41,220 bases of DNA from positions 1 through 41,220 of the forward strand of contig NZ_JAKLWS010000037.1 of assembly GCF_022012475.1 (NCBI RefSeq), given 5' to 3'. Both the position numbers and the translations under genes were made by a program. Below the pieces are notes generated by a model. That model was not told where the DNA came from and searched no databases. It was given only the letters and a program-made list of their open reading frames with translations. This stretch comes from Rhodohalobacter sulfatireducens (GTDB lineage: Bacteria; Bacteroidota; Rhodothermia; Balneolales; Balneolaceae). Of this stretch, positions 6,001-37,980 are shown in pieces (position 1 is the stretch's first letter; each line of letters begins with the position of its first letter).

Positions 6001-7327
6001 GAGCATTACTCCCATTATTTACAGCCGGACTGAGCGGACCCGTAATAGCATGTGTGAAAACGGGACCTCCGTTATCTTGCAACAAACCTAAAAGCGGATC
6101 GCTATTTTCCAGGTCTCCGGTCTCTGTAAAACTGCAGGTATTATCGGATGAAAGATTGTAGCCTTTCGACGTAATCGTTCCTGAACAGTCATCACCACTC
6201 GATTGATTAGCCACAATCGAATTACTGAAATTGATCACTGCACTCCCGGTCCCATTGATAACACCTCCAATTGTACCCGAATTATTCTCAGTGATAGTCG
6301 TATTTACGATGTTAATCACAGCATCAGAAAAATTTCCTGCATAGATACCCCCGGCGCCGTTAAAATTCTCGGCTTGGTTGCTACTGATGGTACTGTTGAT
6401 AATGAGCACCTCACCACCATCTATATCCATTCCGCCTCCTAATCCGCCAGTGTTTCCGTTGATAGTACTTCGGTCGATTGTGACATTCCCGCTTGAAATT
6501 CTGAATCCACCACCAAAAGCGGTTGATTGGTTATCGGATATCGTGCTTTCAGTTATTGTCGCATCTGAATGTTCTATATGGAAGCCTCCCGACCACTGTC
6601 CTCCGTCATTATTTGTGATGATGCTGTTTTCTATGGTTACATCGCTGTTTATAGTTCCATCTTCTTCATTGTACCTGATAATTCGTAATCCGCCCCCCTG
6701 GAAACCGGCTACATTATTTGATATGGTTGATTCAGTAATTGTAACAGTAGAACCTTCGATCCAAATACCACCGCCAAAACTATTTCCATCGCCTGCTGAA
6801 TTACCCGTGATTGTGCTGTTCGTGATCATGAGGTTCTCATTTTTTAAAACCATGATACCACCGGCTATTGAACTTCCGGCTGGTTTTCCACCTGTAATTT
6901 CAATCTCATCGATCTCGACATCTGTACCCGGGTAGAGGATAAAAACGCGGTCAATTTCATCCGCATCGATCGTAGCCAGGCCGGAACCGACAACTTCAAT
7001 TCGAACAGCTGCATCGTTATTGAGAATTTTGAGGGAACCTGACTCTTCATCTGCTGTTGTAGCGTCTGAATCCGTACTCGTATCGGAGTTCACTCTGCTC
7101 AGCGTATAAGTCTGTCCGCCGGTAAGCTGAATGGTTGCTGTCCCGCTACCAACATCATTTGCTGCAATGATCGCTTCTCTGAGAGAACAATCGGTTCCCG
7201 AATTGCAACCGTCAGGAGTTGGATCGTCCGTTCGGGTTACTTCAATTTGGGCCGAAACGACCGGTACGATAAGTATCAAAAACAGTACAAAGAATTGAAT
7301 GGAAAAAGCTTGGTGGAATTTATTCAT
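1..7327 (-). CDS. Giant exported beta-helix / DUF285 (BspA-like) surface protein, 3' end outside window
   Basis: The frame is open from an ATG at 7325-7327 to the window edge: 2442 codons without a stop, so the C-terminus is missing. Residues 1-26 are a signal peptide (MNKFHQAFS..., cut near VSA-Q). A CSLREA motif sits at residues 47-52, followed by Asn/Gly-rich right-handed beta-helix turns ([14 protein letters not shown] type) to about residue 490. Two related modules of about 464 residues follow, each opening with ILYVKKG (near residues 496 and 960) and closing with IDxGAYEFQG. Near residues 1454-1543 and 1721-1813 are two PKD-like domains (DVDWGDG), each followed by a DUF285 array and a C-terminal cap (GLTYC). 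The last visible part ([11 protein letters not shown]..., [11 protein letters not shown]) resembles regions preceding T9SS sorting domains, so a sorting domain just outside is likely but unseen. Probable role: cell-surface adhesin or matrix protein. The substrate is unknown. Confidence 0.88.
1097..1771 (-). repeat. DUF285 coding array: nine 75-bp units
   Basis: Nine consecutive 25-codon units, each beginning with the ATG of an MF dipeptide (from 1771 down to 1171 in steps of exactly 75 bp) with consensus [23 protein letters not shown]. The tenth MF (1094-1096) begins a diverged cap ([13 protein letters not shown]). Units differ at many bases but keep exact phase, as expected for recombination-prone leucine-rich-like BspA/DUF285 repeats in surface proteins. 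Confidence 0.93.
2369..2593 (-). repeat. DUF285 coding array: three 75-bp units
   Basis: Three 25-codon units starting at 2593, 2518 and 2443 ([21 protein letters not shown]), followed by the same cap sequence ([11 protein letters not shown]) that ends the nine-unit array. This is a shorter duplicate of the array at 1097-1771 within the same protein. Confidence 0.9.
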
Positions 7328-7395
7328 GACGATTAGATTAAAATTGAAACAGGTACTCTCTCCGACATACCCGGTTTTGCCAGCGTTAACCCTAC

Positions 7396-7428
7396 ATGCA
7401 ACAGGTCGACTCAAAAAAGATCATTTGA
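7396..7428 (-). promoter_or_regulatory. Composite upstream element of the giant surface gene
   Basis: On the minus strand this reads TCAAATGATCTTTTT, ten bases, then TGTTGCAT, and it ends 68 bp before the start codon. The same arrangement with the same ten-base spacer lies 78 bp before the serine hydrolase start (8992-9024); 22 of the 23 fixed bases are identical. It could be a promoter for an alternative sigma factor or an operator. No matching -10 pair could be chosen with confidence. Confidence 0.5.
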
Positions 7429-7537
7429 GTTGATAATTTTTTGGTTTTTTTAGGATTATTCTCTCTTAGGAATAAATACTGTCAACCTAAATCAGAAATA
7501 GATCCTTTCAGAGTGCCCCCGAATCACCGGTCTTATA

Positions 7538-7610
7538 AGAGTCCCTTGCCATGAAGTCGAACTCTGCAAGGACCTGTCGGACTCTCGCCCCGTAGGATTC
7601 CATTCGGGGC
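7538..7610. repeat. Nested inverted repeats in the 7328-7650 gap
   Basis: AGAGTCC (7538-7544) pairs with GGACTCT (7579-7585), with CTTGC/GCAAG nested inside. A second stem GCCCCG (7587-7592) / CGGGGC (7605-7610) follows. They lie just downstream of the serine hydrolase stop and could end its transcript, but no U-tract follows. The rest of the gap holds only the upstream element at 7396-7428. Confidence 0.45.
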
Positions 7611-9116: not shown

Positions 9117-9692
9117 ATGGCAGAGGAATCATTAAAACTGACTCAGTTGCTGAATTCTGTTGATGAGAATTCAGAGGCGATCGATAAAATTTGGCCCCTC
9201 GTTTATAATGAACTTAGAAATCTTGCTCATCTTGAATTACGCAAAGAGCGAAAAGGACATACGCTGAACACAACAGCGCTCGTACACGAAGCGTACCTGA
9301 AACTGATTAAACATCCGCCGGAAGGAGAGTGGGACGGCCGGCACCATTTTTTTGGAATTGCTGCCCGGGCCATGCGCCAAATTTTGGTGAACTATGCCAA
9401 GAAAAGAAACCGTAAGAAGAGAGGCGGTAAACAAACTCCAACAGAGTTTGAGGAGGGTATCTATTTAACAGAAGAAAAAGCCGAAGAGATTGTGGCCCTC
9501 GATGAAGCCCTGGAAAGGCTTGAAAAGATAAACGAACGGCAGGCCAGGGTGATTGAATGCCGCTACTTTGCCGGGTACAATATTGAAGAAACTGCACAAA
9601 TCCTGGAAGTTTCTCCGGCTACCGTAAAACGAGACTGGACAATTGCAAAAGCCTGGTTATTCAGACAGATTCATCATTCGGGAGAGGATTAA
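9117..9692 (+). CDS. ECF-family RNA polymerase sigma factor (TIGR02999 / PF07638 type)
   Basis: 191 residues. Region 2 includes [17 protein letters not shown] and [13 protein letters not shown], typical of the TIGR02999 group. Region 4 ends with a helix-turn-helix ([28 protein letters not shown], about residues 146-173) for -35 recognition. No anti-sigma gene is adjacent. The next gene on the same strand encodes a transmembrane Ser/Thr kinase. In the ECF43 paradigm (EcfP/PknT of Vibrio parahaemolyticus) such sigma factors are activated by phosphorylation, so the same control is inferred here. A TATAAT hexamer at 9076-9081 lies about 35 bp before the start but has no convincing -35 partner. 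Confidence 0.93.
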
Positions 9693-9771: not shown

Positions 9772-9850
<79 letters not shown>

Positions 9851-10048: not shown

Positions 10049-12439
10049 ATGCAAACGGAGCAGTGGAAATTAATTGAAGGACATTTTCATAAGGCGCTGG
10101 ACCTCCCACCGACAGAAAGGAAGCGGTACATCCAGAGGATAGCTGAAACTGATCCGGCTTTATCTTCTTCAGTTGAAGATCTGTTGAGGTCTCACTTTGA
10201 TTCCGAAGACTTCCTTGAGAGATCCATTTTTGATGATGTGATCTCCCTGCCGAATGAACGTATCGGCGCCTGGAAGATCCTAAGACAGATCGGCAAGGGA
10301 GGTATGAGTACGGTGTACCTGGCTGAACGAGCCGATGGAATTTTTTCGCGGAATGTAGCGGTCAAGTTTCTGCATGGTTTTGCTCCCGGCCGTAAAATGC
10401 ATGCCCGCATGCGAACGGAACAAAAGATCCTTGCCAGCCTGAATCACCGGAATATATGCAGGTTGCTTGATGCGGGTATTCATGAAAACGGGCGACCTTA
10501 TTTTATTATGGAGTATATCGAGGGCCTGCCGATAGACGAGTGGTGTACCTCCCGAAAGCTTTCCATTCAGCAACGCCTGGATCTCTTCACACAAGTTTGT
10601 GACGCTGTGAGTTATGCCCATCAGCGGCTGATTGTTCACCGGGATATTAAGCCATCAAATATTTTGGTAAATAACGAAGGTGAAGTAAAACTTCTGGATT
10701 TTGGAATTGCTAAAATAATCGGCGCTGAACAAGGCGAATCCACAAAAACAAAAACTGGCAATGAACTATTGACTCCGGAATTTGCCAGTCCTGAACAGTT
10801 TCAGGGCCGGGAAGTTACAACGGCCACCGACGTCTATGCACTGGGTCAGCTTCTCTACCTTCTTCTAACGGACACCCTTCCCTTTAACTTCAAAGAGAAA
10901 AGTTCTTATGAAATCGGTAAAACTATTACCGAGTCAGAATCTGAAAAGCCCAGTAAAAAAGTTACACAGCTGTCAACAAAAGATTCTTCCCGGGTAACAT
11001 CCCTTGCACATTTAACAGATCGCCAGGCCGTTCATCAATTACAGGGCGACCTGGATAACATCATCACGAAAGCACTCCGGAAAGATCCACTGCGCAGGTA
11101 TCAGTCGGCCGAGCACTTTAAGAACGATATCATCAATTATATCGAAAACAAACCTGTCTCGGCTCGCCCGGAATCGTTTACATATCTGGCCAAAAAATTC
11201 GTTCAAAGGCATAAAGCTCCGGTTGTAAGCGCACTGGCAGCCACCTTTCTTCTCATCAGTTTAACACTGTTTTCATTCCGGCAGGCGGACGAAGCGAATT
11301 CACAAAGGTTGATCGCTGAACAACGCTCACAAGATGTTCGGCAACTTGCCCATTCACTCATTTTTGACCTGCATGATTCCATCGCAAATCTTCCGGGTTC
11401 CACACCGGCGCGTGAGCTTATCATAGAAGAAGCTTTAAACTACCTGGACGGTCTTGCCCAAACTGAAAATGCCGGGCACGGCCTGCTGCTGGATCTTGCA
11501 GAAGCATACAGGAAAGTTGGTGATGTACAGGGGAATCCCACCAATAATAATCTTGGCAAACACAGGGAAGCGATTACCAGCTATCAAAAGGGACTCGAAT
11601 TTGTCAGAACTGTATTGCAAGAGGAGCCGATGCAGCTCCGGGCAAGGCAAACCATGGCAAATATATATGAGAAAACCGGGGATGTTCAGGCAGTTCTCGG
11701 AAATATCGATACGGCTCGTGAAAACAAAATAGACTCAAATGCGATTTATAAAACCCTCGCCGATGAGTTTCCTGATGATCCAAACAGACAATTTGCATAC
11801 TCAATTTCGCTGATAAAACTGGGAGACCTCACCGGAAATCCCAATTTCAGTAATTTGAATGAACTCGAGGAGGCCTTGCAACTTTATGAGTCAGCCGAAG
11901 AAATCTTGCTGCCCGTTTACAGCAGGGAGCCGGAGGATACAGATTACATAAAATATATGGGCATTATTTATGAACGGATGGGAACCATTTATGAAACTGA
12001 ACAACAACTTGAGGAAGCGATCCGGTGTTTTGAGAAATCTATGGAACTCAGAAAAGAGCTGGTACGGAAAGAACCCTTAAATACCGAAGCCGTTCGGGAT
12101 GAAGCCATTGCTCATGAAAAAATGGGAGACGTTTACAAACATTCAGAAGAGCTTGATAAGTCACTGGACCATTACCGGAATGCACACCGTTTGTTCAAAT
12201 GGCTGGCAGATGCCGATCCGCAAAACTCACAGGCTCAGCAATCTCTGGCAATCAGCCATATTCATTTAGGAGATCTCTTTTTTCATCCCGAACAACCGAG
12301 CTTTGGTGATACATTACAGTCCCGGGAACATTTTAATCTTTCGAATGAAATTCTTCTGAATCTAAATCAACAAGACAGTTCAAATAACCGGGTTGATTTC
12401 CTGATGAACCTAATAGATCGAAGATTGCAGGCGATGTAA
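10049..12439 (+). CDS. Transmembrane Ser/Thr protein kinase with TPR sensor domain
   Basis: 796 residues. The kinase domain spans about residues 72-370: glycine loop GKGGMS (82-87), VAVK Lys106, catalytic HRDIKPSN (Asp199, Asn204), DFG (217-219) and an activation segment ending FASPEQ. All catalytic residues are present. One hydrophobic segment at about 389-411 (APVVSALAATFLLISLTLFSF region) is followed by helical TPR-type repeats (AEAYRKVGDVQGNP, ATAYEKTGDV-like turns) to the end. It follows the ECF sigma gene on the same strand after 356 bp, so it is probably the regulatory partner of that sigma factor: the kinase lies in the cytosol and the TPR part is probably periplasmic. The target is inferred. 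Confidence 0.93.
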   Translation: MQTEQWKLIEGHFHKALDLPPTERKRYIQRIAETDPALSSSVEDLLRSHFDSEDFLERSIFDDVISLPNERIGAWKILRQIGKGGMSTVYLAERADGIFSRNVAVKFLHGFAPGRKMHARMRTEQKILASLNHRNICRLLDAGIHENGRPYFIMEYIEGLPIDEWCTSRKLSIQQRLDLFTQVCDAVSYAHQRLIVHRDIKPSNILVNNEGEVKLLDFGIAKIIGAEQGESTKTKTGNELLTPEFASPEQFQGREVTTATDVYALGQLLYLLLTDTLPFNFKEKSSYEIGKTITESESEKPSKKVTQLSTKDSSRVTSLAHLTDRQAVHQLQGDLDNIITKALRKDPLRRYQSAEHFKNDIINYIENKPVSARPESFTYLAKKFVQRHKAPVVSALAATFLLISLTLFSFRQADEANSQRLIAEQRSQDVRQLAHSLIFDLHDSIANLPGSTPARELIIEEALNYLDGLAQTENAGHGLLLDLAEAYRKVGDVQGNPTNNNLGKHREAITSYQKGLEFVRTVLQEEPMQLRARQTMANIYEKTGDVQAVLGNIDTARENKIDSNAIYKTLADEFPDDPNRQFAYSISLIKLGDLTGNPNFSNLNELEEALQLYESAEEILLPVYSREPEDTDYIKYMGIIYERMGTIYETEQQLEEAIRCFEKSMELRKELVRKEPLNTEAVRDEAIAHEKMGDVYKHSEELDKSLDHYRNAHRLFKWLADADPQNSQAQQSLAISHIHLGDLFFHPEQPSFGDTLQSREHFNLSNEILLNLNQQDSSNNRVDFLMNLIDRRLQAM

Positions 12440-12459
12440 TAGATTTTGGTATTAACCAC

Positions 12460-12511
12460 CCCTAAATCCCCTCCTTGCCCAGCAGGCATCCCGTTGGGGA
12501 AAAAGGAGGGG
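12460..12511. terminator. Hairpin element with CCCCTCCTT/AAGGAGGGG arms, long-loop form
   Basis: Perfect 9-bp arms lie at 12468-12476 and 12503-12511, preceded by ACCACCCCTAAAT. The same sequence occurs at 15438-15472 with a 4-base loop. Here the loop holds an extra segment of about 22 bases (CCCAGCAGGCATCCCGTTGG...). It follows the kinase stop and could terminate its transcript; only a weak T-rich stretch follows. It is also a member of a dispersed repeat family. Confidence 0.5.
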
Positions 12512-12644
12512 ATTGTTTCAATACTTTTACATTTATTTTATACCGAGCTCATAATACTCTATACAACCAAAATATTTCTATTCGCTCTATTCTTTCCTAT
12601 CATTTCTTTACTTTTTTAAGGGTAATGTCATTCAACCGGGGCCA

Positions 12645-13667
12645 TTGGAACTATCACGAGAAATTTTAAGAAACCGACATCGTCTATCAGAAAGGCAGGT
12701 TGACGATTTTTTGGGAGTGAAAACAAATACTGAGAGTCCGAAGGATCGAATATTGGGAATGCAGCAGATCGGCTCGTTCCTTGAAATTGCCAAGCTATTA
12801 AAAAATCAGGAGATTGAGTTTATCAACCTGAAAGGCCCTTTGTTATCTCAGCGTATTTACGGCGATCCTATCTACCGCTACTCCCGCGATTTTGATATTT
12901 TGGTTGAGCCAAACCAAGTCAATCAAACACTTCAATTGCTACGGAATGAGGGTTTTGATTATCCCGAATTCGAGTGGCCGGAATCGGAGAAAAGACAAAA
13001 GATTGCACTTCATTTCTTGAATCAAATTGAGATGGTTCATGAAACGTCCGGATTGATGGTTGAGGTCCATTGGAAGCTGTTTTCAACAAGAATCACAGAT
13101 CACAAGAAACTCGATAATCTGATTCAGGAGAATGTTGAAACGGTCGAGTTTGGAGGTGTTGAACTGAATCGCTTCTCAAAAGAATTTGAACTGTTTTATC
13201 TAATTGTTCATGGAGGGATTCACGCCTGGTTTCGGCTCAAATGGCTGGTGGATATTCATGAAATGCTCGATCGAATAACGTTTAACTGGGAGAAGTTTCA
13301 TCGAATCATCTCAGAATGCAACATTCAAAAATTGATTCCTATCTGCAATGTGATGCTGCAAGAATATTTCCCCGATGAAAACCAAATTCCGGATGCTTCG
13401 CCGACGCCCCAAAAACTTGCTGATACTGCACTTGAACAGTGTCGCCAACCGGAAGGGGATCCCCACATTACACGAGCCAATACATCGAAGCTGCTTCTCT
13501 ATCGAATGAAAATCATTCCCAGCATTCAGCACAAATTGGATGTCTTGAAAGTGATCACATTCTGCAAAACAGATTTAAAATACAGTTGGCTTCCGCCTTA
13601 CAAAATTGTCTACTATCTCTTTCGTCCGGTTGGATATTTATTGAGAGGAATTGGAGTTTTGAGGTAG
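12645..13667 (+). CDS. Nucleotidyltransferase family protein (NTP_transf_5-like, PF14907)
   Basis: About 340 residues. The recognisable core is INLKGPLLSQRIYGDP followed by YRYSRDFDILV (about residues 60-87), the KG-...-D-x-D pattern of PF14907 uncharacterised nucleotidyltransferases. A downstream stretch (EVHWKLFS, HGGIHAWFRLKWLVDIHEML) is also typical of the family, whose members are often next to surface-polysaccharide or peptide-modification genes. The substrate is unknown. The start is uncertain: TTG at 12645 has no clear ribosome-binding site, while an in-frame ATT at 12630 lies 10 bases after AAGG. It does not overlap the permease downstream. Confidence 0.8.
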   Translation: MELSREILRNRHRLSERQVDDFLGVKTNTESPKDRILGMQQIGSFLEIAKLLKNQEIEFINLKGPLLSQRIYGDPIYRYSRDFDILVEPNQVNQTLQLLRNEGFDYPEFEWPESEKRQKIALHFLNQIEMVHETSGLMVEVHWKLFSTRITDHKKLDNLIQENVETVEFGGVELNRFSKEFELFYLIVHGGIHAWFRLKWLVDIHEMLDRITFNWEKFHRIISECNIQKLIPICNVMLQEYFPDENQIPDASPTPQKLADTALEQCRQPEGDPHITRANTSKLLLYRMKIIPSIQHKLDVLKVITFCKTDLKYSWLPPYKIVYYLFRPVGYLLRGIGVLR

Positions 13668-13674
13668 CTATTTT

Positions 13675-13804
13675 TGCGCACAAGTCACAGACTTGCGCGA
13701 GGAATAGGCTATCAAACCAATCCTCGTGGCTGGCGCAAGTTTGCAACTTGTGCCCTCATTGTCATTTTCCCCACTTTAACTGGCGCAATTTTGCAACTTG
13801 TGCC
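13675..13804. repeat. Three short palindromes of the GGCRCAAG...CTTGYGCC family
   Basis: Three elements stand in a row: about 13675-13699 (arms CACAAGT/ACTTGCG around CACAG), 13732-13754 (GGCGCAAG, TTTGCAA, CTTGTGCC) and 13782-13804 (one mismatch, GGCGCAAT). They fill much of the gap between the nucleotidyltransferase and GntP genes. They look like REP-type mobile palindromes. Long relatives with the same ends occur at 34336-34444 and 34737-34844. Confidence 0.75.
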
Positions 13805-13907
13805 TTTCAAATACAGAACTTTCTCTCCTGCACATATCCTCTCTATTCTTTATAATCCATCTGTCTGATAGGTTATCAAACTCTAACTAACCAAAGTTTA
13901 GATACTT

Positions 13908-15230
13908 ATGGGAATTTTTTTGTGGCTATTGCTTGTCGTGGTACTCCTGGTTTGGGGAACCGTACGATGGAATTTGCACCCGTTTCTTGGACTGCTTTTG
14001 AGTGCGATTATCATTGGATTTCTGGCATCACTCCCTGTTTCTGATATTATCTCCGCCATCGGAAGCGGATTTGGTTCGACCCTTGGTAGCATCGGCATTG
14101 TCATTGCGGCCGGTTCCATTATCGGGGAGTACCTGGACCGAAGTGGGGGAGCAAAGGTGCTGGCCAACAAAATTCTGGATACGGTGGGAGAGAAGAATGC
14201 TCCGCTCTCCATGAGTCTAACCGGTTACATCGTATCCATTCCTGTTTTTTGTGATTCGGGCTTCATCGTACTTTCCGCGCTCAATAAAGCCATTTCCAAA
14301 CGGGCAAAAATTCCACTCGCTGTTTTGGCCGTTGCCCTGGCTTCAGGTTTATACGCAACTCACGTGTTTGTGCCACCTACACCGGGACCGCTGGCTGCCG
14401 CCGCAACACTTGGCGCAGATATTGGCTGGGTTCTCATTCTAGGGTTGCTTGTTTCCATTCCGGTGATGGCAGCCGCTTTAATGTGGGCTGTCATCCGCAG
14501 CAAAAACTTTACCATAGACTTTGATACATCCAGTGAAAAAACATCCACGGCAATTCAACCACCTTCGTTCACATTTGCGATTGCACCTATTTTGACTCCA
14601 ATTCTCTTAATCGCTCTAAAATCTGTTGCTGAACTTCCATCGGCACCTTTTGGAGAAAGCTTTTTATTTGATCTTTTCGTCTTTTCCGGAAATCCGATTA
14701 TCGCTCTTTTGGTAGGGGTCGGACTTTCATTTTTGATGGTCAGAGGCAGCAAAGACACCGAGCAACATTCCTGGCTGGAGGAGGGATTGAAAAAGGCGGG
14801 AATTATTATTTTGATTACCGGTGCCGGCGGTGCGTTTGGGTCTGTATTAAGGGAGACTGAACTCAGTACTTTTGCTTCCCAGTTTACGGATATGGGCGGG
14901 TTCGGTATCCTCATTCCGTTCCTGATCGCCGCCTTCCTGAAAACAGCACAGGGGTCATCCACCGTCTCAATCATTACAACCGCGGCAATTGCAGCGCCTC
15001 TTTTAGCACCACTCGGCCTTGACTCAGCGATTGGAAAAGCTCTCGTTGTCCTGGCGATTGGCGCCGGCTCACTAACTGTTTCTCACGTCAACGACAGCTA
15101 TTTCTGGGTTGTCGCTAAATTTTCAGAGATGGATACCTCAACCGCTTTGAGAACCCACACTATCGCCACGGCAATTATGGGAGTGACCGGTTACCTGACG
15201 GTACAGGTATTAGCCTGGATTTTGGTTTAG
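13908..15230 (+). CDS. GntP-family permease
   Basis: 440 residues, strongly hydrophobic, with at least ten predicted membrane spans. GntP-family (PF02447) signatures are visible: GSGFGSTLGSIGIVIAAGSIIGEYL near residues 51-76, SIPVFCDSGFIVLSAL near 111-126, HVFVPPTPGPLAAA near 148-161, and a C-terminal GSLTVSHVNDSYFWVV. Characterised members import gluconate and related sugar acids with protons; some carry other hydroxy acids or D-serine. The exact substrate here is unknown. It stands alone on the plus strand and is convergent with the hexokinase operon, consistent with a role in sugar-acid use. Confidence 0.93.
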   Translation: MGIFLWLLLVVVLLVWGTVRWNLHPFLGLLLSAIIIGFLASLPVSDIISAIGSGFGSTLGSIGIVIAAGSIIGEYLDRSGGAKVLANKILDTVGEKNAPLSMSLTGYIVSIPVFCDSGFIVLSALNKAISKRAKIPLAVLAVALASGLYATHVFVPPTPGPLAAAATLGADIGWVLILGLLVSIPVMAAALMWAVIRSKNFTIDFDTSSEKTSTAIQPPSFTFAIAPILTPILLIALKSVAELPSAPFGESFLFDLFVFSGNPIIALLVGVGLSFLMVRGSKDTEQHSWLEEGLKKAGIIILITGAGGAFGSVLRETELSTFASQFTDMGGFGILIPFLIAAFLKTAQGSSTVSIITTAAIAAPLLAPLGLDSAIGKALVVLAIGAGSLTVSHVNDSYFWVVAKFSEMDTSTALRTHTIATAIMGVTGYLTVQVLAWILV

Positions 15231-27917: not shown

Positions 27918-30900
27918 ATGACTGCCATCTTTAAAAAACTCATTTTGTTATTTTTCTTTTTTGGAATCTGTTCGCCCTCTCTGTTTAGCCAAAACCTGCA
28001 CCTCAACGAAATCCTCTCTTCCAACGAAACCACTCTTGCTGATGAAGACGGCGATTTCGAAGACTGGATTGAAATAACCAACTTAGGTGATGAGCCGATC
28101 AACCTGTCCGACTTCGGCCTTTCGGATGATGGCGATGAACCGTTCAAATGGACCTTCCCCGATACCACGATTCAGCCGGGCGATTTTATGCTGATCTGGG
28201 CGTCTGATAAAGACCGCGCTACTCCAGGATCCGAACTTCATACGAATTTTGGCGTGTCGGTCGACGGAGAAGAGATCTTTTTGACGCACTCCAATGGCAC
28301 GCTCCTGGATCAATCACCCGAAAGAGAATTGGAGGAGGATTATTCAATCGGGCGCCAACCGGACGGCACCGGCGAATGGTTCCGGTTTGATGAACCGACT
28401 CCTGGCGAACCCAACACCACGGAAGCAATCGATGACCCGCTGGAAGAACCCGAACTTTCTCACAATCCGGGTTTTTATACCTCAGAATTTAATCTCGAAA
28501 TTTCCCATTCACGCGAGGATGTCACCTTCTATTACACGCTGGACGGGTCAACCCCGACGGAAGAATCTGCGATGTATAACGGGCCGATTTCTATCAACGA
28601 CAAAAGCAGTGATCCGAACCTTTACTCAACCATTCCCACCAACTTTCTGGGCGGGCGTTACGGCTTCCGGGAACCGGATGGATTGATCCCAAAAGGAACG
28701 GTTCTGCGAGTGAAAGCGGTGAAGGAGGGATTTCGTCCGGCTCAAAGAACCTACTCCTTTTTTGTATTTCCGGAGGGCCATGGTAAACATCAGCTACCGG
28801 TAATCTCCATCACCTCAGACAGCCTGAATTTTTTCGGGGATGAAGAGGGAATTTACGTTCCCGGCGTGCATCACGACGGTCGGGACCACACCGGCAACTA
28901 CTATCAGCGCGGGGAAGGATGGGAGCGGGAATCATCCTTCGAATTTTTTGATGAAGATGGTGAGCAACAGGTCTCACAAAATGTTGGTGTTCGGATTCAC
29001 GGAAGTTTTACAAGGCGCTATGCCCAAAAAAGCCTGCGGATTTATGCCCGCGGTGAATATGGCGAAGGCAGCATCAACTACGAGATTTTTCCCGGCCAGG
29101 AATACGATGAATACGAGAGGCTGGTCCTCAGAAATTCAGGGAATGATCAGGGCTACACCATGTTCAGGGACGCAGCGGCGCACGAGGTTGTGAAGCATTT
29201 TAATATGGAAACGCAAGCGTACCGTCCGTCGGTGGTCTATATCAACGGGGAGTATTGGGGCATTCATAACATCCGCGAGCGATTTGATGACAACTACCTG
29301 GAAAGGGTGTATGGCGTAGATGGCGACAATATCGACTACCTGAGCAACCGCTGGGAGATTGAGTATGGCTCCAACTGGCCGTACCAGGATATGGTGAATT
29401 TCATCGATTCAAAAGATCTATCTGTGGAAGCCAACATGGATTCGGTGAAAACGCTCATGGATATCGACAATTTCCTGGATTATTACACCGCTGAAATTTA
29501 TTTCCTGAATACAGACTGGCCTCACGGAAATATTGAATTCTGGCGGCGGCACATTCCGTACGACAGGAACGCCCCACCCGGACTTGACGGCCGATGGCGC
29601 TGGCTTTTTTACGACCTGGATGCCGGCTTCGGGTTTGTTGAAGATCCCGACTTCGATATGCTCCATTACGTTACCAAACCGCAAGCATTCCAGGATATGG
29701 AGTGGCCGAACCTGATCATTCGGAACTTGCTGGAAAATGAATCATTTAAGCATGATTTCATCAACCGAATGGCGGATCATCTGAATACCTCATTTCGAAC
29801 GGATCGCGTGTTGGATATCATCGACCGGTATCAGGGTCAAATTGCGCCGGAGATGCCTCAATTCATCCGGAGATGGCACTACCCGGCTCGCATCACTCAG
29901 TGGAATGGATTTGTTAACGGTATGAGAGATTTTGCAGAAGAGCGCCCTGGTTTCATGTGGCAAAATATTCTCGATCATTTTGAGATTGAATCAACGGAAA
30001 CCATCACGGTTGATTTGGAAGATACAGATCAGGGAAAAATTCGCGTAAACTCTTTGTTGATTTCATCCGAAACGCCCGGAATTGAAGATAATGCCTACCC
30101 GTGGACGGGCACCTATTTTTCGGGGATTCCCGTTACGCTTAAAACAGATCCCGAAATTGGCTATCACCTCTCGCACTGGGTTGTGGATGGAAAACAGGTT
30201 TATGAACAGGAATTGACCCTTTTACCCGATACCACTGAAAAGATCTCTGCCATTTTTGATGATCTTTCCCTGGATGATTTTGAGCCCTGCGCTTTGGGTG
30301 ATACCACCTACCATTTTTCCGAATGGTTCGCTACCCAACCGACGGATACCTATCCCGAGTCGATGGCATTTGTCTACATGGATGAAACCGAACCGGGACT
30401 GGATGCAACCATCGCCGGTATTACCCAGGGTGCCTACAACCTGGAATCCCGAACCAGGATTAATGGGTTGGGAGAGGACGGATTCTCGTTTATCAATACA
30501 TCAAACGAAGTGGGAAATCGCGGCTACCCTGGCAATCGATTGGGTGGCGCTGTTCTTTTTTTGAATACAGAGGGCCAGGGATCGGTTAGAGTGAACTGGT
30601 TAGCGGGAACTGTTGAGCCCAATTCACGAATTTATAATATCCGGCTGCAATACAGAACGGATACGAATGAACCTTTCCGCGACGTTTTGGATGATGAGGG
30701 AAACCCGGTTGAGTATGAGAGGAATGAAGTTGAAGGTCATTCGCAAGCTCTCGACTCAGTGACGCTTGCAGGCGACGCAGATAATCAGCCAAATGTCCAG
30801 CTTTTATGGAGATATTATTACACGGGTGAACGCGTGGATGAAGAAAACGGACAACGCGCGATGCTGAATATTTCCGAGATTCATGTTACCTCTGAACCGC

Positions 30901-31190
30901 TTTTGGGAGAAGAGCCCGGTCGTCCGCAGGAAGTTCGATTGTTTCAAAACTATCCCAACCCTTTTTATCCGTACACCACCATTCGGTATGATCTGCCGTC
31001 AGATCAACATGTAAAAATTGATCTCTATTCGATTGATGGCCGCCACGTCGCCACCCTCGAAGACAGGGAAGCAGAATCCGGCCGCCATCATGTGGATCTG
31101 GATGTGAGCGGGTTGGCAACGGGTATTTACCTGTACAGACTTTTAACCGATGATTTTTCAGAAATTAAAAAAATGAGTGTAGTTAAGTAA
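27918..31190 (+). CDS. CotH-family secreted protein with lamin-tail domain and T9SS sorting signal
   Basis: 1090 residues. Signal peptide (LILLFFFFGICSPSLFS-Q). A lamin-tail domain (LHLNEILSSN..., DWIEITNLGDEPINLSDFGLSDD) spans about 25-160. A chitobiase C-terminal-like domain (YTLDGSTPTEES) lies near 185-270. A CotH kinase-like domain (PF08757) follows at about 290-680, with HGSFTRRYAQKSLRIYARGEY, INGEYWGIHNIRERFDDNY and WRWLFYDLDAGFGF (near 559-572), the acidic active-site region of CotH. A divergent InlB-like repeat is near 690-785. The last 86 residues (from 1005, LFQNYPNPFYPYTTIRYDLP) form a complete T9SS type A sorting domain. CotH proteins phosphorylate surface proteins in Bacillus spores; activity here is inferred. 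VTC and DUF4956 genes follow on the same strand. Confidence 0.93.
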   Translation: MTAIFKKLILLFFFFGICSPSLFSQNLHLNEILSSNETTLADEDGDFEDWIEITNLGDEPINLSDFGLSDDGDEPFKWTFPDTTIQPGDFMLIWASDKDRATPGSELHTNFGVSVDGEEIFLTHSNGTLLDQSPERELEEDYSIGRQPDGTGEWFRFDEPTPGEPNTTEAIDDPLEEPELSHNPGFYTSEFNLEISHSREDVTFYYTLDGSTPTEESAMYNGPISINDKSSDPNLYSTIPTNFLGGRYGFREPDGLIPKGTVLRVKAVKEGFRPAQRTYSFFVFPEGHGKHQLPVISITSDSLNFFGDEEGIYVPGVHHDGRDHTGNYYQRGEGWERESSFEFFDEDGEQQVSQNVGVRIHGSFTRRYAQKSLRIYARGEYGEGSINYEIFPGQEYDEYERLVLRNSGNDQGYTMFRDAAAHEVVKHFNMETQAYRPSVVYINGEYWGIHNIRERFDDNYLERVYGVDGDNIDYLSNRWEIEYGSNWPYQDMVNFIDSKDLSVEANMDSVKTLMDIDNFLDYYTAEIYFLNTDWPHGNIEFWRRHIPYDRNAPPGLDGRWRWLFYDLDAGFGFVEDPDFDMLHYVTKPQAFQDMEWPNLIIRNLLENESFKHDFINRMADHLNTSFRTDRVLDIIDRYQGQIAPEMPQFIRRWHYPARITQWNGFVNGMRDFAEERPGFMWQNILDHFEIESTETITVDLEDTDQGKIRVNSLLISSETPGIEDNAYPWTGTYFSGIPVTLKTDPEIGYHLSHWVVDGKQVYEQELTLLPDTTEKISAIFDDLSLDDFEPCALGDTTYHFSEWFATQPTDTYPESMAFVYMDETEPGLDATIAGITQGAYNLESRTRINGLGEDGFSFINTSNEVGNRGYPGNRLGGAVLFLNTEGQGSVRVNWLAGTVEPNSRIYNIRLQYRTDTNEPFRDVLDDEGNPVEYERNEVEGHSQALDSVTLAGDADNQPNVQLLWRYYYTGERVDEENGQRAMLNISEIHVTSEPLLGEEPGRPQEVRLFQNYPNPFYPYTTIRYDLPSDQHVKIDLYSIDGRHVATLEDREAESGRHHVDLDVSGLATGIYLYRLLTDDFSEIKKMSVVK

Positions 31191-31240
31191 TCTCCCTTTG
31201 AAGGGAGACAGATTTTTCAAATAAGTTCTTTGAAAAATCA
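31191..31240 (+). terminator. Two hairpins after the CotH gene
   Basis: TCTCCC (31191-31196 region) pairs with GGGAGA across TTTGAA, followed by CAGATTTTTC. Immediately after, an 11-bp perfect stem GATTTTTCAAA / TTTGAAAAATC spans about 31211-31239. The first could be a terminator that separates CotH from the VTC genes, or leave partial readthrough. Confidence 0.5.
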
Positions 31241-31335
31241 GAGGGATGTACATGCGACCCGTTGAGTCATCCCCTTGAATCAACTCTGCTGATTAACTTA
31301 TTCCGAAGCTCTTTTTTCATTTTAACATATGAACT

Positions 31336-31381
31336 GAAGCAGAGCTTCCTGGTGGATGATCCGAAGGAGGACCTTCGGATC
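31336..31381. repeat. GAAGCAGAGCTTCC hairpin element, copy 1
   Basis: GAAGCAGAGCTTCC is followed by a perfect 10-bp hairpin, GATCCGAAGG (31358-31367) with CCTTCGGATC (31372-31381) around AGGA. The same unit recurs at 31550-31595 and, with a different stem, at 41090-41135. Confidence 0.8.
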
Positions 31382-31478
31382 GAGTGAAAATGTATTTTTG
31401 GCTGATCGAGGGGGATGACCGTGGCACGAACTGGAAACCTTTGAGATTTTCAAGAACGTCGTGACTCTTGGAGGATCC

Positions 31479-31595
31479 CCGACAGGCTTGTCGGGGAACG
31501 CTTCAAGGTCACTTTTACCACCGCTTTCTTACAATTTTACACCTGATCAGAAGCAGAGCTTCCTGGCGGGTGATCCGAAGGAGGACCTTCGGATC
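31479..31595. repeat. GAAGCAGAGCTTCC hairpin element, copy 2, and a CCCCGACA palindrome
   Basis: A palindrome CCCCGACAGGCTTGTCGGGG is at about 31478-31497. GAAGCAGAGCTTCC at 31550-31563 is followed by the same hairpin as copy 1 (31572-31581 / 31586-31595). Further on, CCGTCAGCTGACGG is a palindrome near 31640. The 31191-31747 gap between CotH and VTC consists mostly of these elements and contains no gene I can support. Confidence 0.75.
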
Positions 31596-31747
31596 AAGTG
31601 AAGGGGAAGCTCTAATTAAAAGGGAAAGCCTCTCCTTGTCCGTCAGCTGACGGATAGGGAGGGGTTGGGGTGAGTCAGCCAGTGGGAGGATTATTTCTCG
31701 TTTTCTAATCTCCTGCCATTTTTTTATTCTAAAATAAATAAACCGTT

Positions 31748-32518
31748 ATGGAGCAGACCTTTCAAAGGCAACGTTTTGAGTTGAAGTACCGCATCAACGA
31801 GTCGAAAGCACAGGAGATCCGCTTTTTCGTTGAGAACTACCTGGAGTGCGACCCTAATGGTGCCTCCAATCCTGATCGATCCTATAAAGTTCACAGCCTC
31901 TACCTCGATTCACCGGGTTTAAACACCTACCATCGCACTGTAAATGGAGATCGAAATCGCTATAAATTGAGGTTGCGATATTATGATTCTGTTGACTCCC
32001 CGGTCTTCTTTGAAATCAAGCAGCGGCGCAATCGTGTGATCCGCAAAAAACGAGCACAGGTTGTTCGGGATTCCGTTCAGGATCTGCTCAATGGCCATGC
32101 CCCTACAAAAAATCATCTCGCAAAAAATTCGTTAACTGAACTGGATGCACTTGAACATTTTTGCTTTTTAACAGGAAAACTTCAGGCATCACCTAAAATG
32201 CATGTTACTTACATGCGTGAAGCTTATGAAAAAAGAGATTCAAACGATGTAAGGGTTACGATCGACAGGGATGTGAAAAGCAGCCGGGTTCGCCATAATC
32301 ATTTTGAACCTCAGCAATCCGGTGGGCTCCCGGTCTTTGGTAATACGGTAATCCTGGAATTAAAGTTTACGAACCGATTCCCGGATTGGCTGAACGAGTT
32401 GACACAGCGATTTCACCTGAGGCGTGAGTCGGCTTCAAAATATGTGGACAGCATTGAATTTATTCGCTTTAGCAGAATTGAAAAAGGAATGAACACAACA
32501 CCGGTTTATCATGAATGA
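31748..32518 (+). CDS. VTC-domain protein (polyphosphate polymerase domain, PF09359)
   Basis: 256 residues, no signal or membrane segment. The tunnel-type VTC fold motifs are present: RFELKYRI (9-16), SLYLDSPGLNTYHRT, RYKLRLRYYD, FEIKQRRNRVIRKKRAQV (basic substrate-binding strand), VTIDRDV, VILELKFTNRFPDWL and a C-terminal SASKYVDSI. In yeast Vtc4 this domain makes polyphosphate from ATP; many bacterial members remain uncharacterised. Its stop overlaps the start of the DUF4956 gene by 8 bases. Bacterial VTC genes commonly occur beside DUF4956 and CotH genes. Confidence 0.9.
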   Translation: MEQTFQRQRFELKYRINESKAQEIRFFVENYLECDPNGASNPDRSYKVHSLYLDSPGLNTYHRTVNGDRNRYKLRLRYYDSVDSPVFFEIKQRRNRVIRKKRAQVVRDSVQDLLNGHAPTKNHLAKNSLTELDALEHFCFLTGKLQASPKMHVTYMREAYEKRDSNDVRVTIDRDVKSSRVRHNHFEPQQSGGLPVFGNTVILELKFTNRFPDWLNELTQRFHLRRESASKYVDSIEFIRFSRIEKGMNTTPVYHE

Positions 32519-33197
32519 ATGGTTTCAATTTGGCGATACGGCACCCATCCCAACAGATCTTCCAACACTTCTTCTTGGCTTGCTCCTCTCTTTTATGTGC
32601 GGGCAAATCCTGGCATGGATTTATATGTACACGCATACCGGGCTTTCCTATTCAAGAAATTTCGTAAGCTCGCTGATCATCATCCCCATTACCGTTGCCC
32701 TCGTAATGATGGTGCTTGATAACAACCTCATTACCGCATTCAGTCTTCTCGCCGTTTTTGCCATTGTTCGATTCAGGAATATTTTACGTGACACGCTTGA
32801 TACGGCTTATATTTTGTCTCTCATTGTGATTGGCATGGCATGCGGGACTCAAAAGTTTTCCACTGCAATTGTTGGAACTGCGGTTGCCTCGTCGGCTCTG
32901 ATCTTTATCTGGTTTACCAATTTTGGATCAAGACAGCGATATGATCTGATTCTAAATCTCCATTGGTCACAGCCTCTCTCACGGCTCGATCACCTTCGGG
33001 AGTTCCTGAATCGCCATTCGTTAAAAACACGCCTGGCTTCGCAGCGTTCTGATGATGAACTGGAAAAAACTCACCTCTCATACCGGCTGCTTTTGCGTGA
33101 TCCGAATAAAGTGGACCTATTGCTTTCGGAACTCAAACAGATTGATGGGGTATCGGATGTAAGCAGCATGCGGGCTGAAGATGAATCGGAGGTGTGA
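32511..33197 (+). CDS. DUF4956 membrane protein
   Basis: 228 residues. The first about 145 residues contain four to five membrane segments (LPTLLLGLLLSFMCGQILAWI, FVSSLIIIPITVALVMMVL, AFSLLAVFAIVRFRNILRDT, YILSLIVIGMACG, AIVGTAVASSALIFIWF). The motif GLSYSRNF-...-FAIVRFRNILRDTLDTAY is typical of DUF4956 (PF16316). A soluble C-terminal part of about 85 residues (DLILNLH..., SSMRAEDESE) resembles a small regulatory alpha/beta domain. Its ATG overlaps the VTC stop and its TGA overlaps the next ATG, so the three genes are translationally coupled. Function unknown; probably the membrane partner of VTC. Confidence 0.9.
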   Translation: MNEWFQFGDTAPIPTDLPTLLLGLLLSFMCGQILAWIYMYTHTGLSYSRNFVSSLIIIPITVALVMMVLDNNLITAFSLLAVFAIVRFRNILRDTLDTAYILSLIVIGMACGTQKFSTAIVGTAVASSALIFIWFTNFGSRQRYDLILNLHWSQPLSRLDHLREFLNRHSLKTRLASQRSDDELEKTHLSYRLLLRDPNKVDLLLSELKQIDGVSDVSSMRAEDESEV

Positions 33198-34288
33198 TGA
33201 AGGAAAAAAAATTTGAACCGATTCCGATCCCGTGGGAGCAACGCCTGAGGGAACTTCGTGTTCGCGTTTTGCCGATCATTGTGTTTTTATGTGTTGGAGC
33301 GGCTGTAATCTATTTGTGGAGAGATACCACGAGTCACCCCACACTGATCGGCCAGGTTGTTGGAGAACGATCGGCCATTTCGAGCCCGGTGGATGGTACA
33401 ATTATCAATTTTTACTATGAACCGTTTGATGAAGTAAATCAGGGAGAACTTCTTGGCCAGGTTTTTCCGCGGGACAGTGTTTTTCTTCAATCGCAATTGA
33501 ACCTGATTCGAGCAGAAATTGAACGGATCGAACAAACAAGAGAACCGGTATTAGCGGAGCAACGCGTTCGTTTAGACCTTGAAGACCTGAAAATCAGCCA
33601 GATGGAAACACGAATTTCACTGGCACAGGCAAGGCTTCAACAACAGCAGGCTGAATCTGAATTTGAACGGTTTGAAAATCTCAGAAACCGTGAACTAATC
33701 TCTGAGCAGCGTTTTGATTCGGTACAAACAAAGCTCGAGCTTTTTAATGTCCAGGTTCGAGAGTATCAAAATATGCTGGAATATTACTCCGACCGAATCC
33801 GGGAAATTGAAGATTATACTTCGTACGGAGATCGGGCCGACCGAAACCCGGTATTGGCGGCCATCAAAGTTCAGGAGCAACAGATGGAGGCAATTTTAGC
33901 AGAATTTGGCCCAACCCCGTTTTATGCGCCCATCAGCGGTGTAATCAGTTCGGTTCAAAATGCAGGAGGTGAGTTTGTATCACGCGGAGATTCATTATTG
34001 GTGATTGAATCACGGGAACCAACTCATATTGTTGGATATGTGCGACAACCTTTCACACAAACTCCGGAAGTGGGGATGAATGTACAGGTTCGAACCCGAA
34101 AAGCGAATCGAACATTTTTCGATTCAAAAATTGAAGAGGTCGGCGGACATGTTCGGCTCCTTCGAAGAAATCTACAACGTCCCGGTGCCATTTTTGAAAG
34201 CGGCCTGCCCATTAAAATTGCCATGGCCGATTCGATTAACCTAAACCTGATGCCCGGCGAGTTGGTTGATATTGTTTTGTCACCTTGA
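33197..34288 (+). CDS. HlyD-family periplasmic adaptor protein
   Basis: 363 residues from the ATG at 33197, which overlaps the preceding TGA and has GGAGG at 33189-33193; a GTG three bases earlier is less likely. One N-terminal membrane segment (VLPIIVFLCVGAAVIYLW) is followed by a split biotinyl-lipoyl domain (SAISSPVDGTIINFYYEPFDEVNQGELLGQV and FYAPISGVISSVQNAGGEFVSRGDSLLVI) separated by a long alpha-hairpin of about 130 residues. A beta-barrel part follows (GMNVQVRTRKANRTFFDSKIEEVG). It resembles membrane-fusion proteins of export systems and of polysaccharide synthases such as Alg44. No ABC or RND pump gene is nearby, so it may join the DUF4956/VTC proteins to the envelope. Confidence 0.88.
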   Translation: MKEKKFEPIPIPWEQRLRELRVRVLPIIVFLCVGAAVIYLWRDTTSHPTLIGQVVGERSAISSPVDGTIINFYYEPFDEVNQGELLGQVFPRDSVFLQSQLNLIRAEIERIEQTREPVLAEQRVRLDLEDLKISQMETRISLAQARLQQQQAESEFERFENLRNRELISEQRFDSVQTKLELFNVQVREYQNMLEYYSDRIREIEDYTSYGDRADRNPVLAAIKVQEQQMEAILAEFGPTPFYAPISGVISSVQNAGGEFVSRGDSLLVIESREPTHIVGYVRQPFTQTPEVGMNVQVRTRKANRTFFDSKIEEVGGHVRLLRRNLQRPGAIFESGLPIKIAMADSINLNLMPGELVDIVLSP

Positions 34289-37502: not shown

Positions 37503-37538
37503 TTTTTAAAATCACCAAGAAGACTAAATTAGGATACT

Positions 37539-37980
37539 CTGCGTTCCACCGCGTTCTCTGCAGTTGTTCTCTGAGGAATTTTATGCTTGGTCATTAGAGA
37601 TCCCCAAAGCTCATTCGCTATATGTTCATTTAAATTTCGCCCCTACAAAAACGATGAGAAACCGCGAACTCAAACGCACGAATTTTTAACCGCCAAGTTC
37701 GCGGAGAGCGCAAAGACAGAACTGAGACCATTTGACCAGTGTACCCTGCGTTACACCGCGCTCTCTGCGGTTATTTTCTGAGGAATTTTATGCTTGGTCA
37801 TTAGATATCCCCAAAGTTCATTCGCTATACGTTCATTTAAGTTTTCCCCTACAAAAACGATGATTAACCGAGAAGTTAAGCGCACGAATTTTTAACCGCC
37901 AAGTTCGCGGAGAGTGCAGAGACAGAATTAAGACCATTTGACCAGTATGCCCGGCGTTACACCGCGTTCCCTGCGGTTAA
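37539..37980. repeat. 207-bp tandem direct repeat, two copies plus a partial third
   Basis: Copy 1 runs from 37539 (CTGCGTTCCACCGCGTTCTC), copy 2 from 37746 (CTGCGTTACACCGCGCTCTC) and a partial third from about 37951 (CGGCGTTACACCGCGTTCCC). Shared interior blocks include GAGGAATTTTATGCTTGGTC, CCCCTACAAAAACGATGA and AACCGCCAAGTTCGCGGAGA. The 37503-38007 gap holds no gene. Confidence 0.9.

Follow-up and report, generated by a model that had tools for sequence, protein, structure and literature searches.

A conserved VTC-DUF4956-HlyD gene unit next to a secreted CotH-type kinase in Rhodohalobacter sulfatireducens suggests a little-known polyphosphate route to the cell surface

What might a polyphosphate polymerase-like enzyme, a membrane protein of the DUF4956 family and a periplasmic adaptor have to do with a kinase destined for the cell surface? 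This question is raised by a locus of Rhodohalobacter sulfatireducens, in which the genes for four such proteins follow each other on one strand (contig NZ_JAKLWS010000037.1 of assembly GCF_022012475.1; the window is the whole stretch analysed, positions 1 to 41,220):

27918..31190, + strand: gene for a CotH-type secreted kinase, 1090 amino acids (open reading frame with Pfam and NCBIfam domains)
31191..31747, no strand: intergenic gap of 557 bp with a hairpin and direct repeats
31748..32518, + strand: gene for a VTC-type triphosphate tunnel enzyme, 256 amino acids (open reading frame and Pfam)
32511..33197, + strand: gene for a DUF4956 membrane protein, 228 amino acids (open reading frame, Pfam and model)
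33194..34288, + strand: gene for an EmrA-like HlyD adaptor, 364 amino acids (open reading frame, Pfam and model)

A sequence-only reading made earlier had placed the four open reading frames here and described the last three as overlapping, and both statements are confirmed: VTC and DUF4956 share 8 bases (32511-32518), while the stop codon of DUF4956 overlaps with the start of HlyD, which can be GTG at 33194 or ATG at 33197 inside TGATG. As this unit of three genes recurs in several phyla, in genomes which mostly encode surface kinases, a little-known route of polyphosphate to the cell surface is suggested. Most likely, the unit is envelope-spanning and ties the chemistry of polyphosphate to the cell surface; that VTC, DUF4956 and HlyD share an envelope function is, in our judgement, quite probable.

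Conservation of the unit within and beyond the Bacteroidota

Loci were annotated with profiles grown from the window proteins and again with wider profiles, whereby adjacency means the same strand and a limited distance to DUF4956 (700 bp for VTC, 1.5 kb for HlyD, 6.5 kb for CotH, 2.5 kb for TolC-like genes and 400 bp for DUF2490). VTC is present in 54 of 146 related genomes, that of R. sulfatireducens included, and 53 stretches fetched around VTC genes of related genomes together with the window make up a first set of 54 loci. Those loci contain 53 DUF4956 genes, none of them in L060 and L082, whose VTC is close to the end of a contig; each of the 53 has VTC upstream, partly as a consequence of the choice of loci, and HlyD is adjacent in 48. 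The five misses are two loci at a contig edge (L037, L042) and three of family f8 (L081, L083, L084) which fall in the DUF2490 group of the tree described below. A TolC gene (PF02321) directly precedes the trio of L047 and, outside the Bacteroidota, lies two genes past HlyD in L169. One relative carries a complete VTC-DUF4956-HlyD-CotH cassette duplicated in tandem (L067:6056-18532).

DUF4956 itself is encoded by 76 of the 146 relatives, as a single copy in 75 and in two copies in one, and 23 of the 76 have no VTC match. Twenty of these 23 were fetched as a second set (L087-L106; G077, G079 and G080 were left out), and in all 20 DUF4956 is followed by HlyD and then by a TolC-like gene of approximately 410-440 amino acids. 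Two products of this third gene were scanned, of which the first exceeds the OEP cut-off (25.9 bits, E 9.8e-6) and the second falls short of it (18.5 bits, E 0.0019), and a profile begun from the OEP-matching protein finds all 20.

When named genomes were scanned with the DUF4956 alignment, at least 474 related stretches were confirmed, the best 80 loci of which were kept: 22 from Balneolales and other Bacteroidota, some of them from genomes also in the first set, and 58 from outside the phylum, mostly Verrucomicrobiota with single records of Omnitrophota, Hydrogenedentota, Kiritimatiellae and Proteobacteria. Among the 58 non-Bacteroidota loci of these best 80, 54 have an adjacent VTC, 45 an adjacent HlyD and 43 the two together, and 4 have a CotH gene within 6.5 kb; with the narrower profiles, VTC and HlyD are found together in 60 of the 80. 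In L138, HlyD is directly followed by the gene for a CotH protein that has a chitobiase-like domain as well as lamin tails, and in L157 and L160 a glycosyltransferase-like gene, recognized by eye, takes the place of HlyD. No pathway is evident among the 25 commonest of the 127 neighbour families of the 58 loci; of 259 neighbouring proteins 104 were scanned, with FIST as the commonest domain (6 matches). FIST-domain genes were also noted by eye near the trio in four loci of Verrucomicrobiota and Omnitrophota (L132, L135, L142, L169).

Within the phylum of the window, 94 of 392 genomes drawn have a DUF4956 match. In a hand-picked, non-random sample of 40 loci from this phylum the order HlyD-VTC-DUF4956 occurs 15 times, VTC-DUF4956-DUF2490 13 times, HlyD without VTC twice and other forms 10 times; an HlyD or DUF2490 gene stands beside DUF4956 in 30, and 18 have a CotH gene within 6.5 kb. 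Eight DUF2490 candidates were scanned and each exceeds the PF10677 cut-off, several with additional weak porin or outer-membrane-barrel matches; between DUF4956 and CotH of L211 there is a gene for a Porin_O_P protein (30.4 bits against a cut-off of 20.9).

A midpoint-rooted DUF4956 tree of 147 rows, built from the first set, the hand-picked sample and the 58 loci with the VTC-less set absent, places the Balneolales with HlyD downstream together with the Verrucomicrobiota and their allies in a group of 104 rows (support 99/97), to which neither the remaining Bacteroidota, whose HlyD is upstream, nor the DUF2490 group belong; long branches elsewhere blur finer placement. Because the same gene order occurs in two phyla within one group of the tree, movement of the cassette between phyla is suggested. 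Pairwise distances of VTC, DUF4956 and HlyD correlate (0.95, 0.87 and 0.89 across 96 triplets), which in itself has little weight as a control gene was not included. HlyD had been regarded as an addition to a CotH-VTC-DUF4956 core in this genome, and that view has to be given up, as the adaptor is a regular partner across phyla (48 of 53 and 45 of 58 loci); as the fixed partner for which a neighbourhood analysis had been proposed, it is regular in this VTC-DUF4956 group and not universal. Both HlyD and CotH occur together with VTC-DUF4956 far beyond R. sulfatireducens. A report of the VTC-DUF4956-HlyD unit was not found in the open-licence papers searched.

Predicted functions of the encoded proteins

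The VTC protein matches PF09359 (E 1.1e-41, 143.4 bits against a cut-off of 23) and the yeast Vtc4 structure 3g3q (E 1.8e-15). Its residues K13, R75, R77, K91, K100, R157, R169, E204 and K231, with positions counted by eye, align with tunnel residues of Vtc4 and are invariant in an alignment of 25 sequences, except K13, which is present in at least 90%. The Vtc4 equivalents of K13, K91, K100, R157 and R169 we take to be K200, K281, K294, R361 and R373. R75, R77, E204 and K231 are the counterparts of R264, R266, E426 and K458 (Vtc4 numbering according to PMC4641920 and PMC9911596), K231, equivalent to the catalytic Lys458, being invariant in all 25. By eye, R9 and K206 are basic as in Vtc4, while E11 is phosphatase-like, since tunnel enzymes of the phosphatase type have a Glu near this position where Vtc4 has a Thr (PMC4641920).

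DUF4956 is assigned by Pfam (E 3.3e-12), and its predicted structure (predicted local distance difference test score, pLDDT, 76) consists of five helices (residues 17-135) followed by an ACT/ferredoxin-like C-terminal domain (approximately 144-221); R87 and R89 of an RFR motif are invariant in 35 sequences. Similarity to MgtC is faint: the Pfam family PF02308 stays below its cut-off (9.7 bits against 31.4; E 0.016 for the L098 protein and 1.4 for that of the window), and hhalign gives P 4e-4 with a probability of 34%. Compared with the PDB, only the C-terminal domain of the model is matched, with Z of approximately 9 to 10 to many ferredoxin-like folds; no match reaches E 0.001, the MgtC C-terminus 2lqj ranks 31 (E 0.02), and the best PDB sequence found by the DUF4956 profile has E 0.32. 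A streptococcal membrane protein has likewise been termed MgtC-like with an ACT domain (PMC12345266). DUF4956 may, in weak analogy, be of MgtC-like build with a helical membrane part and an ACT-like C-terminus, with which the model agrees.

HlyD, matched by HlyD_3 (E 1.2e-9), combines HlyD domains with an N-terminal membrane helix (14-47), a long alpha-hairpin (121-165/171-208) and beta domains in its model (pLDDT 85), the features of a membrane fusion protein. Its best matches in sequence and structure are EmrA of EmrAB-TolC (structure E 9e-17, TM-score 0.45); as it remains below the NCBIfam EmrA cut-off (54.6 bits against 390.8), it is named EmrA-like only. The adaptor had been thought to resemble Alg44. 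This identity is rejected, as a PilZ domain is not matched in Pfam or NCBIfam at E 0.01 and EmrA is closest. Pump, adaptor and TolC are not encoded together in the window, judged from its 20 open reading frames scanned; elsewhere in the genome, 11 OEP proteins exceed the cut-off.

The CotH protein is a multidomain protein with the following features, given in window coordinates:

N-terminus of the 27918..31190 product, + strand: signal peptide (by eye)
27996-28313, + strand: LTD (lamin tail; Pfam E 1.1e-13, position converted from the protein match)
28467-28601, + strand: CHB_HEX_C_1 (chitobiase-like; Pfam E 2.4e-12)
28989-29957, + strand: CotH domain PF08757 (Pfam E 9e-52)
29514..29615, + strand: stretch of the putative catalytic Asp residues, D533 codon to D566 codon (alignment and match to PDB 5jd9, D566 by motif and spacing)
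30951-31178, + strand: tail for the type IX secretion system (T9SS), type A (Por_Secre_tail, PF18962; Pfam E 1.6e-9, 38.4 bits, cut-off 27)

The lamin-tail, chitobiase-like and full T9SS sorting domains named by the sequence-only reading are thereby all found by Pfam, the last also exceeding the TIGR04183 cut-off of NCBIfam (34.3 bits against 23), and SprA, from which presence of the T9SS is judged, is encoded in the genome (1555 bits). D533 is kept in 15 of 15 and D566 in 14 of 15 aligned CotH sequences, two of 17 (L071, L077) having been excluded with a misaligned domain. While the single sequence finds nothing convincing in the PDB (best E 0.27), the CotH profile matches 5jd9 (E 3.8e-4). 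Mutants of Asp228 and Asp251 of Bacillus subtilis CotH are inactive (PMC7821199), and D533 and D566, the latter placed by eye, are read as their counterparts, so that the CotH domain comes with both predicted catalytic Asp residues. In ten loci of family f3 (L043, L045, L048, L053, L054, L056, L059, L061, L063, L065) a protein of approximately 615-909 amino acids follows CotH; the L063 protein, the one scanned, carries a tail for the T9SS and matches M30 peptidases weakly, below the cut-off.

Between CotH and VTC, the gap holds two kinds of element:

31191-31208, no strand: terminator-like hairpin directly 3' of the CotH stop (terminator search)
31312-31388 and 31526-31602, no strand: 77-nt direct repeats, 86% alike, with perfect GATCCGAAGG palindromic stems (repeat comparison)

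The two copies bear out the repeats expected in this gap. Because of hairpin and repeats, CotH may be transcribed separately from VTC-DUF4956-HlyD; terminator-like matches are not commoner in the region than in shuffled sequence (8 against a mean of 8.5). The nearest relative of the window in the DUF4956 tree, L038, has similar sequence in the equivalent gap; its CotH (10959-14232) is seemingly split into frames of 906 and 183 amino acids by a frameshift or an assembly error.

Adjacency of CotH is looser than that of the trio, which it adjoins on either side, differing by lineage; in the first set it lies within 6.5 kb of DUF4956 in 22 of 53 cases, 7 upstream and 15 downstream. R. sulfatireducens itself has VTC once and a further CotH gene on a different contig. 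Across genomes the association is pronounced: among the 146 relatives, CotH is present in 52 of 54 genomes with VTC against 38 of 92 without (Fisher p 2e-12) and in 73 of 76 with DUF4956 against 17 of 70 without (p 7e-21), and among 194 genomes sampled from the phylum to which a Verrucomicrobiota genome belongs in 34 of 36 with VTC against 11 of 158 without (p 6e-26), whereby the tests treat related genomes as independent. Fifty of the 58 non-Bacteroidota genomes were searched and 49 encode CotH, with a median of 13.5 copies among the matches listed. Several Verrucomicrobiota (G471, G473, G496, G508 and others) have very many CotH genes, at least 36 in one. Among 14 control genomes, VTC and DUF4956 are both present in Bacteroides ihuae, Corynebacterium glutamicum and Methanosarcina acetivorans and CotH in B. 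subtilis, C. glutamicum and M. acetivorans, so that two agree with VTC and two disagree. Of the envelope assembly proposed by the sequence-only reading, the joint function of VTC, DUF4956 and HlyD is upheld by an adjacency kept in differing arrangements and the tie to CotH by these genome-wide counts, while its Alg44-like part falls away.

Routes of polyphosphate and competing explanations

How could the four proteins act together? The VTC tunnel enzyme would make polyphosphate from ATP in the cytosol, and DUF4956, residing in the inner membrane with its ACT-like domain on the cytosolic side and its invariant RFR arginines where the third helix meets the cytosol, would hold VTC there and gate or conduct the chain. 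The EmrA-type HlyD would reach across the periplasm to a channel of the TolC type whose gene lies elsewhere in the genome, and polyphosphate would arrive at the surface, where the CotH kinase delivered by the T9SS would modify surface proteins or matrix. The polyphosphate cargo, its outward direction, the membrane topology, the partnership with TolC and a dependence of CotH on the polymer are the steps we infer, and as a whole this four-part mechanism is tentative, with somewhat less than an even chance. The predicted outer-membrane theme of the unit speaks for it, with OEP, TolC, DUF2490 and Porin_O_P proteins as neighbours, as do the conservation of the trio in differing gene orders, the EmrA matches of HlyD, the Vtc4-like tunnel residues of VTC and the co-occurrence with CotH in two phyla. 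In yeast, synthesis of the polymer is coupled to its translocation via a positively charged path (PMC9911596).

Several observations weigh against this mechanism. VTC is not always needed, as 22 of the 23 relatives with DUF4956 and without a VTC match have CotH. Bacteroides ihuae, one of three controls with VTC, has VTC without CotH. HlyD was not found in 13 of the 58 non-Bacteroidota loci, several of which have long flanks, so that it is truly absent there. A TolC-type gene does not occur among the 20 window open reading frames scanned, and the closest homologue of the L047 TolC in the genome of R. sulfatireducens (E 8.5e-94) adjoins, by eye, a gene for a 1033-amino-acid RND-like protein and a cut-off adaptor-like frame, wherefore it was rejected as a dedicated orphan TolC. 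The DUF4956 model, at a pLDDT of just 76, has no visible pore; polymerase activity of the window VTC is unreadable from sequence because E11 replaces the Thr of Vtc4, and an assay of a bacterial VTC protein was not found in the open-licence literature searched. Finally, aggregation and Pel remain in a VTC-type gene mutant of Streptococcus intermedius (PMC12345266).

In a regulatory alternative, DUF4956 as an MgtC-like protein would sense a ligand by its ACT domain and, together with VTC, tune the use of phosphate or ATP and the exporter of HlyD, the polyphosphate staying inside the cell. The weak MgtC similarity and the ACT-like C-terminal fold agree with it, as does S. intermedius, where loss of the membrane-ACT gene alters Pel and aggregation while loss of the VTC-type gene leaves aggregation (PMC12345266); the frequent adaptor, TolC-like or outer-membrane-barrel partner genes indicate transport beyond sensing alone, and we consider regulation rather unlikely. 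VTC might also be a tripolyphosphatase or have another triphosphate-tunnel activity, with the unit exporting something else that is phosphorylated or anionic, for instance the precursor of a saccharide. EmrA-like adaptors do serve other cargoes, and a DUF4956-HlyD-OEP form exists without VTC. Tunnel enzymes with the same residues differ in activity, as exemplified by AtTTM3, which has the tunnel centre in common with Vtc4 and yet makes no polyphosphate (PMC4641920), and Glu at position 11 points the same way; the Vtc4-like R9 and K206 and the invariance of K231 argue for a polymerase. This alternative we consider unlikely, more so than regulation.

A further step beyond the four-part mechanism would be a dedicated polyphosphate secretion system, with an exit through TolC or, in other lineages, through a barrel of the DUF2490 or Porin_O_P type, whose surface polyphosphate serves as phosphoryl donor or energy source for the many secreted CotH kinases, which would otherwise find little ATP outside the cell. 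One donor exporter for many kinases fits because numerous CotH copies (the above median among the matches listed) stand against a mostly single DUF4956, counts which come from different genome sets; we regard this reading as improbable. The CotH link might instead be incidental, adjacency arising by chance or shared habitat among many CotH genes. It would account for the proximity of CotH in just 22 of the 53 related loci and 4 of the 58 from outside the Bacteroidota, its many copies per genome in the 50 genomes searched, the terminator-like hairpin in the gap, the 17 of 70 relatives with CotH and without DUF4956, and the opposite patterns of B. subtilis (CotH without VTC) and B. ihuae. Co-occurrence in two phyla, adjacency on either side across lineages and an equal pairing at the Pel loci of Gram-positive bacteria (PMC7112168) speak against it, and it appears the least probable of the alternatives.

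Apart from this locus, the window contains three tandem repeats. A heptamer CAGTAGG (9773-9830; 8.3 copies, 98% match), possibly a slippage-prone element, sits between the genes for an extracytoplasmic function (ECF) sigma factor (9117-9692) and for a Ser/Thr kinase-TPR protein (10049-12439); a 206-bp repeat (37534-37979; 2.2 copies, 88% match) lies downstream of a TolB-like propeller gene, and a 75-bp repeat (1124-1730; approximately 8 copies, 72% match) is perhaps coding.

Relation to known systems

A set of genes for CotH, a polyphosphate polymerase, DUF4956 and DUF4832 is known next to Gram-positive pel operons (PMC7112168), and the window unit is a Gram-negative variant of the CotH-VTC-DUF4956 set of such Pel loci. 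Common to it and the S. intermedius accessory genes SIR_1592-1594 are the side-by-side CotH, polyphosphate polymerase and DUF4956 genes, a secreted CotH and an ACT domain on the membrane protein (PMC12345266); we infer from the two papers combined that SIR_1592 is the DUF4956 protein. The Gram-positive genes are located inside pel operons, and HlyD is not named in the passages on them, whereas the window trio sits outside any pel operon, judged from the 20 larger open reading frames scanned (small frames and most of bases 1-7600 lay outside the scan), which contain no Pel family, has HlyD, and its CotH bears LTD, chitobiase-like and T9SS domains. When the membrane-ACT gene SIR_1592 was deleted, Pel increased, and when the CotH gene was deleted, it decreased; in sputum medium, aggregation of either mutant fell to less than half. 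The heading of that section calls Pel production independent of these genes (PMC12345266). The authors of this 2025 report also state that they found no case of the three genes together outside the Pel locus (PMC12345266). The present loci bear on this claim, as the three families stand together in the window with no Pel family in the 20 frames scanned; Pel was not specifically searched for in the other genomes.

By these comparisons, what was a loose cluster of VTC, DUF4956 and CotH becomes a defined envelope unit of Gram-negative bacteria, which includes an adaptor, has predicted partners in the outer membrane and is present in at least two phyla and seemingly transferred as a cassette. If polyphosphate is indeed the cargo, a secretion route for this polymer would be at hand and the phosphate donor of secreted CotH kinases would become testable.

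With the yeast VTC complex the unit shares the tunnel domain with matching catalytic residues of Vtc4 and a synthesis beside a membrane protein. The membrane part of the yeast complex is a DUF202-type domain within the same complex, its target is the vacuole and its regulation depends on SPX; the window encodes instead a distinct, possibly MgtC-like protein that bears a modelled ACT-like domain. From the MgtC/SapB family, to which it is linked by a weak profile match and with which it would, according to its model, have in common a helical membrane part followed by an ACT-like domain, DUF4956 differs in staying under the Pfam cut-off and in its distinct conserved motif RFR. EmrAB-TolC provides the nearest relative of the adaptor in sequence and model, but a major facilitator superfamily pump was not found beside the window HlyD, and the inner-membrane partner would be DUF4956. 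In the text of a paper on zetaproteobacterial stalks, a CotH domain appears and the terms VTC, HlyD and DUF do not. The proteins BT3498-BT3499 are a DUF4956 and a DUF2490 protein (PMC10434189), in agreement with the VTC-DUF4956-DUF2490 class. In the VTC/'tubulin'/CotH genes of Clostridium perfringens NELoc-2, each VTC gene is likewise followed by a gene for a predicted membrane protein, with CotH near, while the organism is Gram-positive and HlyD is absent from the genes listed (PMC2879425, PMC11677781).

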